Positions 1,895 to 54,530 of a stretch of 59,627 bases of DNA are shown here, in pieces. A program made the position numbers and the translations under genes. Position 1 is the stretch's first letter; each line of letters starts with the position of its first letter. The notes under the pieces were generated by a model. That model searched no databases. It was not told the origin of the DNA and saw nothing but the letters and a program-made list of their open reading frames with translations. The stretch lies in contig JAGCVW010000013.1 in NCBI GenBank assembly GCA_017962165.1, forward strand, positions 1 through 59,627, in the 5' to 3' direction. The DNA is from Bacteroidales bacterium. Lineage in GTDB: Bacteria; Bacteroidota; Bacteroidia; Bacteroidales; UBA932.

Positions 1895-2288
1895 GGGGAT
1901 GTTTTGGTTTTGACAGCATCGTAGACGGCAGTAAGCACGCCGGGAGTCGGAAGCCCTCCCGTTAATCCCAGTTTCCAAAAATTAGTAGGCAACTACAACT
2001 ATTCATACGCTTGCTAAGTCTCCAAGAGACAGGCATTAATCAGAGCCGCCAAGGCTGCGGCACTGACGTATATCCCGCCAGGATTCAGGCCGGTCCTTTC
2101 TGGCACACGGGGTATCATCCAGACCGGATGCACGGAGCGACTCCTTTAAACTCCGCCAAGACTTAAAGGATAAGCGTCGGCATAGCCCGTCTTCCGGCAT
2201 ACCTTCGCCGACACCAAAGGAAGAATAAGCGTGTAGAAAGCTACCGGGTATTATGTTTGGACGAGGGTTCGAGTCCCTCCATCTCCAC
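1895..2288 (+). ncRNA. ssrA: tmRNA (ribosome rescue RNA)
   Basis: tmRNA frees stalled ribosomes and tags the unfinished peptide. The 5' end GGGGATG pairs with CATCTCC at the 3' end to form the acceptor stem, followed by the typical TTTTGGTTTTGAC. The 3' end has the T-arm signature GGTTCGAGTCC and discriminator A2288; CCA is not encoded. The tag reading frame appears to start after TTAGTA at 1988 (GGC) and end at TAA 2015-2017, reading GNYNYSYAC. That ending differs from the usual -LAA or -AA. No promoter box is visible in the 16 nt after the preceding gene, so the promoter may lie inside that gene or transcription may be shared. Confidence 0.93.
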
Positions 2289-2290
2289 GA

Positions 2291-50502: not shown

Positions 50503-50533
50503 TTTGGTGCGTAAATTATTTTATCTATCTTTG
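50503..50533 (+). promoter_or_regulatory. Promoter of tRNA-Glu
   Basis: TTTG (50503-50506), exactly 19 nt, then TATCTTTG (50526-50533): a perfect Bacteroidetes -33/-7 promoter. The box runs into GCAGTCCC, as in the tRNA-Val promoter. AGTCCC-AATC-GGGACT forms a small hairpin just before the tRNA. Confidence 0.88.
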
Positions 50534-50811: not shown

Positions 50812-51063
50812 TTATTTCTTGCGGGCCTTGTATCTCTGATAGAACTGGTCAACGCGTCCGGCGGTGTCGATGATCTTCGTTTTGCCGGTGTAGAAGGGAT
50901 GAGAAGTGTTGGAAATCTCGACCTTCACGAGGGGGTACTCAACGCCTTCGATCTCGATGGTCTCCTTGGTGTTGACACACGAGCGGGTGATGAATACATC
51001 TTCGTTTGACATATCCTTGAAAGCTACAAGACGGTAGGTTTCGGGATGGATTCCTTTTTTCAT
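50812..51063 (-). CDS. rpmE2: 50S ribosomal protein L31, type B
   Basis: Ribosomal protein of the large subunit. The 83-residue product begins [20 protein letters not shown] and contains [14 protein letters not shown] and [11 protein letters not shown], all characteristic of L31. It lacks the CxxC zinc motif of the A type, so it is the zinc-independent B type. It has its own strong promoter and terminator, with a leader of about 25 nt. Confidence 0.95.
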
Positions 51064-51091: not shown

Positions 51092-51122
51092 CAAATATAG
51101 AAAGATATTTCATCAAACCAAA
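51092..51122 (-). promoter_or_regulatory. Promoter of rpmE
   Basis: On the minus strand TTTG (51122-51119), exactly 19 nt, then TATATTTG (51099-51092). This is a complete -33/-7 pair, as expected for a ribosomal protein gene. Confidence 0.85.
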
Positions 51123-52570: not shown

Positions 52571-53635
52571 ATGTTCAGTTTCAGGACAACCCCGATAGAA
52601 GAACAACTCGACCGCGGCCTTTTACAGGGCCGCGTGGGTTGTCTGTGCACCCAGAACTGCTTCGACACCTCGACCGGCAAGTATCTCTACGATATATTCA
52701 GGCAGAGAGGCAACCTTGTCAGGCTGTTCCAGCCTTCCGGGACCGAACTTACCCCGGGAACCAACCACATAGAGTTCGGCCAGGAGGATCTGGAAGAACT
52801 TGATGCGCTGGTAGTCGAGATTCAGGATGTCGGGACCCGCTACTTCAATTTCACGCGCGACGTGATGCGTCTGCTCTCTACCCGTGCTCGCATGGAAGAA
52901 GGCCCGTCGATATACATAGTCGACCATTTCAATCCCGCAGGGCGCAGCGTCGAGGGAACGATCCCGGCAGTCGACTCGGATATCTGGACGCCCAAAGTGG
53001 CGCACCGCCATGGCCTTACGCTGGGCGAACTCTGCAGCCTTTATGTCGACGAAATCGGGGCCCGTTTCCCCCTCCATGTGATTTCGGCGGAGACCAACCG
53101 CTCGTCGGCCGACATCATGCCGTGGACCATCGCCCCGTCATCCGACCTTCCGAGCCTGTTCTCTGCATACATGTACAGCGGCGGAGGCCTGTGGAACAAC
53201 ACTACTGTCACGCCGGCAATCGGTACGGCGCGGCCGTATGAATACATAGGAGCCCCATGGCTCCGGCCGGATTCGGTCGCCGCGCCGCCGTGCCCCGACG
53301 GCGTGATCATGCGCCCGTGTTCCTTCACCCCCTCCGCCGGACGTTATGCCGGCGAAAGATGTCTGGGGTACCAGATCATCCTCAAGCCCGAAGCAAGATA
53401 TCACTCTTTGCTGCACACTCTGGAACTGATGCGCTACTTGGCCGACCATTATTCCCAGTTCGAGATGCTCCCGCAGCTCCACGTCAAGGTCGCCGACCCG
53501 GTGATCAGCGAATACCTCCGCGGCGGAATCACCTTCGACATAGTCCAGGAACACGTCAAAGCCGAAGAGCAGAAGTGGATACGCAAAGCCAAGAGGTACG
53601 TCCTCTACGACGATCCGCCGGTAAGAATAAAATAA
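52571..53635 (+). CDS. DUF1343 family protein (NamZ-like, GH171)
   Basis: Relatives of this family (NamZ) are exo-beta-N-acetylmuramidases releasing MurNAc from peptidoglycan fragments. The 354-residue product has VEIQDVGTRYFNF, IVDHFNPAGRSVEGTIP and SGGGLWNNTTVTPAIGTARPYE, matching DUF1343 signatures. Length is slightly short and no signal peptide is visible, so it may act in the cytosol on recycled muropeptides. It is 2 nt from the glmM-like gene, consistent with wall recycling feeding amino-sugar metabolism (inference). Confidence 0.85.
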   Translation: MFSFRTTPIEEQLDRGLLQGRVGCLCTQNCFDTSTGKYLYDIFRQRGNLVRLFQPSGTELTPGTNHIEFGQEDLEELDALVVEIQDVGTRYFNFTRDVMRLLSTRARMEEGPSIYIVDHFNPAGRSVEGTIPAVDSDIWTPKVAHRHGLTLGELCSLYVDEIGARFPLHVISAETNRSSADIMPWTIAPSSDLPSLFSAYMYSGGGLWNNTTVTPAIGTARPYEYIGAPWLRPDSVAAPPCPDGVIMRPCSFTPSAGRYAGERCLGYQIILKPEARYHSLLHTLELMRYLADHYSQFEMLPQLHVKVADPVISEYLRGGITFDIVQEHVKAEEQKWIRKAKRYVLYDDPPVRIK

Positions 53636-53640
53636 CGACT

Positions 53641-53664
53641 AAGGCCCGCTTCACAGCGGGCCTT
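53641..53664 (-). terminator. Terminator-like hairpin shared by both strands
   Basis: AAGGCCCGCT-TCAC-AGCGGGCCTT is a perfect 10-bp stem. On the minus strand it is followed by AGTCGTTATTTTATT, and it would end the leftward small transcript. On the plus strand it ends the glmM-DUF1343 unit but lacks a U run. Confidence 0.75.
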
Positions 53665-53702
53665 AACGATTAGTTAGTAGTGTATTACCTTAAGAAGGTT
53701 AA

Positions 53703-53750
53703 TTATTGTTGGTTAGAATCCTTACGTGAGTAAGTTGAGTTGTTTATCAT
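53703..53750 (-). CDS. Candidate 15-residue small protein
   Basis: ATG at 53750 is 10 nt past the final G of the promoter box, so the leader would be only about 3-5 nt. The frame reads MINNSTYSRKDSNQQ and stops at TAA 53705-53703. The peptide is polar with no membrane or signal features. Evidence for translation is only its position; it may equally be incidental within a small RNA. Confidence 0.4.
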   Translation of the reverse strand: MINNSTYSRKDSNQQ

Positions 53751-53759
53751 TTCCGACGA

Positions 53760-53790
53760 CAAATATACATCAACTTTTCATATCCGCAAA
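53760..53790 (-). promoter_or_regulatory. Strong promoter of the small RNA
   Basis: On the minus strand TTTG (53790-53787), exactly 19 nt, then TATATTTG (53767-53760). The only other complete TTTG-N19-box pairs I found here drive tRNA-Glu and rpmE. The TTTG lies inside the imperfect palindrome GCAAAATATTTTTGC (53786-53800), which could be an operator. Confidence 0.8.
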
Positions 53791-53852: not shown

Positions 53853-54530
53853 CTATTTGTCGAGTAATTCGGGCCTTAGCTCGCGGGTGCGGGCAAGAGC
53901 CTGCTCGTCCTGCCAGGCCTGAATCAGCTTGGGATTGCCGCTGAGGAGCACTTCGGGAACCTTCCAGCCGTTGAATTCCGCGGGTCTTGTATACACTGGA
54001 GGAGACAGGAGATCGTCCTGGAAAGAATCGGAAAGCGCCGAGGTTTCGTCGGTAAGGGCTCCGGGAATCAGGCGGACGATGGCGTCTGCCAGACGGGCGG
54101 CGGGGATTTCTCCTCCGCTCACCACATAATTGCCTACAGAGATTTCGCGCGTAATAAGATGTTCTCGGATGCGGTGGTCGATACCCTTGTAGTGGCCGCA
54201 GAGAATGATGATGTTCCCGAGGAGCGACAGGGAATTGGCTATGCCCTGGTCAAGTATCTCTCCGTCGGGGGACATGTAGATGATTTCGTCGTAGTCGCGC
54301 TCGGCCTTAAGTTCCTCTATCATCCTGAAGACGGGCTCCACCATCATCACCATGCCGGCGTCGCCGCCATATGAATAGTCGTCCACATTCTTGCGCGGAC
54401 CGATTCCGTACTTGCGGAGATTGTGGACATGGATCTCGACCAGGCCCTTCTTGATCGCCCGGCCGACTATGCTGTGTCCCAGGGGGCTTTCAAGGAGTTC
54501 AGGCACTACCGAAAGGATATCTATTCTCAT
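53853..54530 (-). CDS. trmD: tRNA (guanine-N1)-methyltransferase
   Basis: Methylates G37 of tRNAs to prevent frameshifting. The 225-residue product starts [16 protein letters not shown] and has the trefoil-knot SAM site motifs [28 protein letters not shown] and [15 protein letters not shown]. Length is normal. The ATG lies 5 nt after the -7 box, so its mRNA is probably leaderless. It stands alone here, not in the rpsP-rimM-trmD-rplS operon seen in many bacteria. Confidence 0.94.

Follow-up and report, generated by a model that had tools for sequence, protein, structure and literature searches.

A putative small RNA gene of Candidatus Cryptobacteroides with two unpaired seeds predicted to pair with the start sites of nitrogen and amino-acid genes

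In the genome of a gut or rumen member of the Bacteroidales, a leftward transcription unit that lacks annotation looks like a gene for a small RNA of about 115–120 nt (53638..53755, minus strand, the 5′ end being placed from the promoter and the 3′ end from the terminator). On sequence evidence, we assign a probability of roughly 0.8 to the reading that this RNA acts in trans, pairing with mRNA leaders near the start codon and blocking translation; it probably silences genes of nitrogen uptake and amino-acid metabolism. Base-pairing small RNAs are a known kind, and the family described here is one without an Rfam match. What is new is the predicted base-pairing with the start sites of nitrogen and amino-acid genes.

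The window, i.e. the whole stretch of 59,627 nt that was analysed, is contig C34 of genome G000 (1.24 Mb, 69% complete). The small RNA gene sits between trmD (53853-54530, minus strand), on its upstream side, and a convergent NamZ-like gene (52571-53635, plus strand), the product of which matches Pfam NamZ_N and NamZ_C (exo-beta-N-acetylmuramidase). From Bacteroidales metagenome-assembled genomes, 80 relatives of trmD were kept (protein identity 80–96%). Six of them are named Candidatus Cryptobacteroides, and this was taken as the host genus. Together with 20 loci obtained by similarity, the 80 trmD loci make up the 100 fetched loci; some of loci L001–L020 share genomes with loci among L021–L100.

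A promoter of the sigma-ABfr type, TTTG-N19-TATATTTG, lies on the minus strand at 53760..53790, as the first-pass annotation had stated (−33 box TTTG at 53790-53787, spacer of 19 nt, −7 box TATATTTG at 53767-53760). The pattern TTTG-N18-20-TAnnTTTG occurs three times in the window, versus 0.18 expected from 100 dinucleotide shuffles. The two other complete pairs are indeed the only ones: that at 50503-50533 (plus strand) directly precedes tRNA-Glu, and that at 51092-51122 (minus strand) precedes an 83-aa ORF (50812-51063; rpmE according to the annotation). Of 78 related loci, 74 have a promoter of the form TTG-(18-20)-TAnnTTTG or TAnnTTTTG before the RNA, with a spacing of 19 in 64 of them, and the −7 box starts about 20 to 97 nt ahead of the RNA core. 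The exceptions are L014, for which upstream sequence is missing, and L086, L093 and L094, in which no promoter was recognisable. The annotation had also read a near-palindrome at the −33 box as a sign of regulation. The inverted repeat is present (GCAAAA-ATA-TTTTGC, 53800-53786), but regulation through it did not hold up: a 6-bp inverted repeat in the −33 region was observed in two of 76 family promoters, that of the window included, versus 2.1 expected from shuffles. A conserved operator at this position was therefore rejected.

The predicted fold of 53756-53638 has a free energy of −29.3 kcal/mol (z −4.33 versus shuffles), mostly because of the terminator. At the 5′ end the RNA fold contains a stem-loop, CTTAC-TCAC-GTAAG (53721..53734, minus strand), which is variable among relatives and apparently absent in some. 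It is followed by seed 1, UUCUAACCAACAAUAAUUAACC (53697..53718, minus strand), as delimited by a 38-sequence alignment. Seed 1 is mostly unpaired (mean unpaired probability of its CUAACC 0.81 in 77 RNAs), and its final bases belong to a linker hairpin, ACCUU-CUU-AAGGU (53687..53699, minus strand), which lies between the two seeds. At least 3 bp of a linker hairpin can form in 74 of 76 family linkers, with a mean of −3.4 kcal/mol versus −0.7 for shuffled sequences (L068, with its short linker, was left out of this count). Seed 2 is ACACUACUAACUAAUC in the window (53668..53683, minus strand) and ACACUACUAACUAACC in the family consensus; it is recognised from the alignment and from its complement at start codons, and its mean unpaired probability is 0.93 in 74 RNAs.

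The gene ends in an intrinsic-terminator hairpin with a GNRA-type loop (53638..53667, minus strand), identified by hairpin scan and covariation. The perfect 10-bp stem that had been pointed out, AAGGCCCGCT-GTGA-AGCGGGCCTT, is there, and with its extension the scan gives 13 pairs; the minus strand offers a weak T tract, CGTTATTTTA. The alignment comprises 38 RNAs, ten of the 48 non-redundant RNAs having been left out, mostly for long 5′ parts. It is apparent from this alignment that CUAACC and ACACUACUAACUAACC are near-invariant and the 5′ part is variable. The fold is conserved in the terminator, where nine of 11 consensus pairs show double-sided changes with pairing kept in at least one sequence. 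The terminator loop reads G-N-G-A (GUGA, GCGA, GAGA or GGGA) in nearly all family members, with variable stem pairs. By sequence, the gene is thus an independent unit with its own promoter and terminator, as is expected of a base-pairing small RNA.

A covariance model, R1, was built from the 38 sequences, that of the window included, and matches 53758-53638 at 115 bits. In the Rfam search of this stretch no match reached the gathering score; the three matches up to E 5 were all far below theirs. A DNA search gave matches in 33 of 61 genomes, namely 28 of the 37 genomes of the genus and five weak ones elsewhere in the order, many of the matches being restricted to the region from the end of the ORF through the hairpin. 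Among the fetched loci, blastn found an 86-nt core at every one of the 20 obtained by similarity and at 58 of the 80 around trmD, 78 of 100 in total, and the covariance model added eight trmD loci, which brings the RNA to 66 of 80; locus L082 ends short of its terminator. Because in 12 of the 58 loci the core and trmD are on opposite strands, the RNA is not simply a trmD 3′ UTR element.

With the covariance model, the RNA gene was found in 120 of 151 genomes of the genus (53 of the 62 good ones), as a single copy in 119 of the 120; the misses may reflect incomplete assemblies and strict filters. Outside the genus it is nearly absent among the searched genomes. The model finds it in five of 393 genomes of an order-level sample, two of which are from the genus, and, at E 0.05, in eight of 79 genomes of a family-level sample, four of which are from the genus. 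Of the order-level matches, L103 spans a coding start and L105 is doubtful. L104 (1501-1622), from another family of the order, combines a weak model match with a promoter-like box TATCTTTG, the stretch CACTAACC and a terminator whose loop is GTGA, and is possibly a distant relative or an unrelated small RNA. At the family level only the match in G544 (E 1.3e-6) is plausible; the others were discarded as the terminator alone, mRNA leaders or coding-like sequence. A stretch resembling ACTACTAAC/ACTACTGACTAATAACTAACC on the minus strand of L229 (G459:C23, near 1500), in a genome with no model match, might be a diverged copy.

The first-pass annotation had left open whether the unit specifies a small RNA or a 15-residue protein. 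The RNA part of that statement stands, promoter, core and terminator being conserved across most of the genus, and the peptide part is not supported. The 15-codon ORF, MINNSTYSRKDSNQQ (53703..53750, minus strand), does exist, and its start is the 10th base past the −7 box, which together with the identical 15-residue peptide in the very close locus L002 and the SNQQ or NQQ endings of ORFs in ten further members would speak for a peptide gene. Against this, the frame is not conserved beyond close relatives: 35 of the 77 family members lack an ATG within their first 45 nt, and the remaining 42 have peptides of 1–35 residues that are alike within close clades only. Even in L021, the trmD of which is 96% identical, the frame ends after seven codons. 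The common SNQQ ending is accounted for by the conserved RNA core, which happens to be in frame. The ORF was judged non-coding, and a gene for a 15-residue protein is the least probable of the readings considered here. Scarcely more credible is the absence of any gene, the hairpin being a bidirectional terminator between two unit ends and the promoter a product of chance. The hairpin does lie between the namZ and trmD ends and has a weak T tract, but chance would not be expected to leave a promoter in 74 of 78 family loci, a near-invariant 16-nt element, both orientations relative to trmD and one copy per genome.

The first-pass annotation put forward no function; the one proposed here is based on sites complementary to the seeds at gene starts. 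With as many as three mismatches allowed, the 16-nt complement of seed 2 occurs at 34 places outside the RNA gene in nine genomes of the genus. In most of these genomes such sites are near the control level. G008 is exceptional, with 11 rows, one of which is the RNA gene, versus four in the control, and all ten of its non-self near-complements lie within 26 nt before the start of an ORF. These ORFs specify aconitase, an EamA transporter, a PaaK-like protein, PurU, AsnA, DapA, a beta-eliminating lyase (presumably threonine-aldolase-like), a lipoprotein, a GTPase and a TonB receptor. Among the other eight genomes, four of 24 non-self near-complements are at gene starts, namely those of an EamA transporter, a Glu/Leu/Phe/Val dehydrogenase and an exported protein in G005 and of IlvD in G003. 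Gene families were assigned by family search, some by a near-identical start only.

An exact pattern, the 12-nt seed-2 complement TTAGTTAGTAGT with an ATG no more than 15 nt after it, was searched in 200 genomes of the genus and gave 45 rows, or 44 places, compared with 17 for the pattern read backwards. The RNA gene itself, recognised by position or sequence, accounts for 14 of the 44 places. At 26 of the 30 others, an ORF of at least 91 residues begins at that ATG; the four that do not begin such an ORF are in L187, L199, L204 and L329. When functions were sorted by hand, 14 of the 26 ORFs fell in nitrogen, amino-acid or TCA-to-glutamate metabolism: Icd (three), ProC (two), the C-terminal part of GuaA (two), and one each of ProB, IlvD, LysA, PII, citrate synthase, aconitase and the beta-eliminating lyase. 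The remainder comprise NSS transporters (three), PaaK-like proteins (two), EF-G (two), an EamA transporter, a TolB-propeller protein, an AMP-binding enzyme and two short ORFs without a family. At least one member per family was searched, several being below NCBIfam cut-offs or truncated at the end of the locus, and the remaining ORFs were named by near-identical starts. Sites also precede genes off the theme, such as those for EF-G, PaaK, the TonB receptor and the GTPase, and G450 has sites and no model match.

A looser pattern was searched in 70 genomes (69 good ones and that of the window). In the antisense orientation, 14 of the 19 non-self places are starts of ORFs with at least 250 residues, compared with three of 11 for the same-sense control; nine of the looser-pattern places coincide with exact-pattern places, and ThrA is added. 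Read backwards, the looser pattern occurs 55 times versus 21 rows. Since the backwards control is rarer for the exact pattern (17 versus 45) but commoner for the looser one, it is the placement at gene starts that counts, rather than the frequency of the sites. Recurrence was judged from the flanking sequence. Before the NSS transporter genes the 12-nt site is identical, whereas the preceding 25 nt are 28–56% alike and the coding starts 87–91%. In pairwise genome comparisons, the 25 nt preceding the exact site are 52% alike for PaaK and 44% for EF-G. For GuaA, ProC and Icd they are 72–84% alike (best register), so these sites may reflect shared descent.

The leaders of the PII gene and of the amt gene beside it were examined across genomes. 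A single 60-residue query located PII in 28 of 111 genomes, and ten of its 28 leaders have a seed-2 complement of at least 8 nt (nine of them at least 9 nt) in the 50 nt before the ATG; in the other 18 no match is longer than 5 nt. Of the amt leaders, nine of 23 have a site, by seed 2 (8 nt) or seed 1 (9 nt). The combined count of 19 of 51 was reached by none of 1000 shuffled seed pairs (mean 0.9, maximum 17), and same-sense seeds give one of 51; the genomes are related, so that these counts are not independent. When the two genes were picked, sites were already known from G489 and G500; leaving these two genomes out gives eight of 26 for PII, seven of 21 for amt and 15 of 47 together.

In the window's own genome, G000, the exact and looser patterns are absent before ATG and no match to PII was obtained. 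The sampled part of G000 has one clear target, the gene for a TrpB-like enzyme (NF009057, TIGR01415). In the leader of this gene, TTAGTAGTGGTTAATTATTGTTTATATG, 9 nt match seed 2 and 14 nt match seed 1, the two standing in antiparallel order. Both seeds are matched in this order in the leaders of aconitase (G008), the TrpB-like enzyme (G000) and PEPCK (G489), the PEPCK matches lying 30–50 nt before its ATG. The predicted duplex gains are −36.5 kcal/mol for aconitase and −14.2 kcal/mol for the TrpB-like enzyme, and in both predicted duplexes the linker hairpin is kept and the two helices are joined.

These observations suggest a mechanism in which seed 2, sometimes together with seed 1, would pair with mRNA leaders at the start codon or just upstream of it, so that the start codon would be occluded and translation blocked. 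Such blocking is predicted by analogy with GibS and FopS as they are described in the literature. The linker hairpin would set the two seeds side by side, and one nearly continuous stretch of target could therefore pair with both. The predicted targets, which vary by species, are mainly enzymes and transporters for the assimilation of ammonium and glutamate and for amino-acid synthesis: PII, Amt, type III glutamine synthetase, citrate synthase, aconitase, isocitrate dehydrogenase, a glutamate-type dehydrogenase, ProB, ProC, ThrA, LysA, DapA, AsnA, IlvD, the TrpB-like enzyme, GuaA and NSS and EamA transporters. The trigger might be nitrogen or amino-acid status.

Genome-wide controls set bounds on how the target claim is to be read. 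Among 882 sampled leaders (about 30% of those of G000 and a sixth each of those of G008 and G489), 11 match the seeds, versus a shuffled mean of 8.2 (sd 4.2; 73 of 300 shuffles reach 11), and same-sense seeds also give 11. Windows 50–150 nt further upstream give nine and seven matches, and windows inside genes zero to two. By duplex energy, fewer leaders pass with the real seeds than with shuffled ones, and the real ones are not stronger. Seven of the 11 antisense matches precede genes for an EamA transporter, the TrpB-like enzyme, ThrA, glutamine synthetase III, PEPCK, Amt and PII; no theme was seen among the same-sense matches. As there is no genome-wide excess, the claim rests on the identity, position, orientation and recurrence of the matches. 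Long perfect targets were sought and discarded: in three good genomes the 11-mer GGTTAGTTAGT occurs in the RNA and just once elsewhere (G473:C3). The 20-mer complement of seed 1 was found in the RNA gene of five genomes and at one place in G040.

The lack of an excess of complementary leaders would also be expected if the conserved RNA acted mainly by binding a protein, whether one of the RRM type or the translation machinery, and its complementarity to leaders were incidental. The conserved stretches are unpaired and CUAACC is repeated, and RbpB of B. thetaiotaomicron is described as binding within single-stranded, AU-rich stretches (PMC11697453). Incidental complementarity would not, however, place antisense sites at the start codons of a coherent gene set, recurring in diverged leaders, with same-sense sites at start codons much rarer, and we consider this alternative unlikely. 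The coherence of the gene set would equally suit a DNA operator, in which TTAGTTAGTAGT is bound by a transcription factor for nitrogen or amino-acid genes and is merely contained in the RNA gene. That is very improbable, given that gene starts are far commoner with one orientation, at 0–15 nt from the ATG by the search pattern, and that within the RNA gene the element adjoins the terminator, a long way from the promoter; nor would an operator be expected to yield antiparallel two-seed leaders that omit the hairpin. A base-pairing small RNA, with a conserved unpaired seed complementary to translation initiation regions, is the reading we prefer.

To our knowledge, few small RNAs of the Bacteroidota have known targets. 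Those described in PMC7366714 and PMC11697453 are concerned mainly with glycan use. GibS of B. thetaiotaomicron pairs by single-stranded seeds with translation initiation regions and represses its targets (PMC7366714, PMC11697453). Like the RNA described here, it is intergenic with a single-stranded seed, and it uses both of its two seeds on one target. It differs in that it directly targets a glucan-branching enzyme together with a hypothetical protein, rather than the mainly nitrogen and amino-acid genes predicted here, and in that its promoter has motif 2 instead of the canonical type (the two RNAs were compared by description). FopS, of which 12–15 copies per genome are reported in the Bacteroidaceae named, represses SusC-type transporters (PMC11697453). 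It resembles the present RNA in its canonical sigma-ABfr promoter, its single-stranded 5′ stretch with a terminator hairpin and its pairing near the start codon, which for the present RNA is predicted. An unpaired 5′ stretch followed by a terminator hairpin, as described for FopS and GibS, is found here with an extra linker hairpin. FopS is multicopy, whereas the present RNA is single-copy (119 of 120 genomes) and nearly confined to one genus. By eye, the leaders of the 14 SusC-type loci examined in G000 have no seed complement close to the start. Mimicry of SusC mRNA leaders, an idea from weak model matches in leaders L117 and L119, was rejected; by eye, one of the 14 loci (L120) is partly RNA-like in its leader.

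Regulatory RNAs tied to nitrogen or to carbon/nitrogen balance have been described elsewhere: NsiR4 and NsrR1 (PMC7281752), a small RNA from the glnA 3′ UTR (PMC9731577) and NfeR1 (PMC10746234). These are from Cyanobacteria, Enterobacteriaceae and rhizobia and were compared by description. As far as those descriptions go, the present RNA differs from them in a predicted set that spans the citrate-to-glutamine route and several amino-acid pathways. Among the titles retrieved on small RNAs and nitrogen, none was on Bacteroidota, and none of the papers searched joins Cryptobacteroides with small RNAs, or B. thetaiotaomicron with both small RNA and trmD.

More tentatively, and at rather less than even odds, the RNA may be a central post-transcriptional regulator of nitrogen and amino-acid metabolism in the genus. 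In such a case the linker hairpin would close the split seed into one composite seed, and the RNA would control the steps leading from ammonium and citrate to glutamine as well as the aspartate, proline and branched-chain pathways. Sponge RNAs bearing seed complements would titrate it in some species (candidates in G002, G001/G522 and G529). A genus-wide RNA with predicted targets among nitrogen and amino-acid genes would offer a testable entry into nitrogen control in Bacteroidota, in a genus of rumen and gut bacteria represented here by metagenome-assembled genomes only, and the hairpin-closed composite seed is a clear structural hypothesis that simple mutants could test.

The candidate sponges differ in form. 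L350 (G002:C312:1200-2800) has a perfect TTTG-N19-TATATTTG promoter (678-708), sites at 742-778 and a terminator-like hairpin at 784-807; three of its pieces complement the seeds, and the first two of these follow the composite order. The fetched piece gave no trmD or namZ match, and the model found no copy of the RNA in G002. In L199 (G001) and L187 (G522), the strand bearing TTAGTTAGTAGT has, at about 1440-1560, two seed-2 sites, a terminator-like hairpin and an imperfect promoter, adjoining what we take to be uvrB; pairing of the G001 stretch with the G001 RNA is predicted at −23.4 kcal/mol. A GGTT-rich stretch of L204 (G529:C21, about 570-720), with no long ORF at the site, resembles the complements of both seeds and is followed by a terminator-like hairpin. 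It is a weaker case than L350 and L199/L187, and all are leads only.

Elsewhere in the window, a tmRNA gene lies at 1895-2290 (plus strand). The tag given by ARAGORN, GNYNYSYAC, has an unusual-looking end and was possibly misread.
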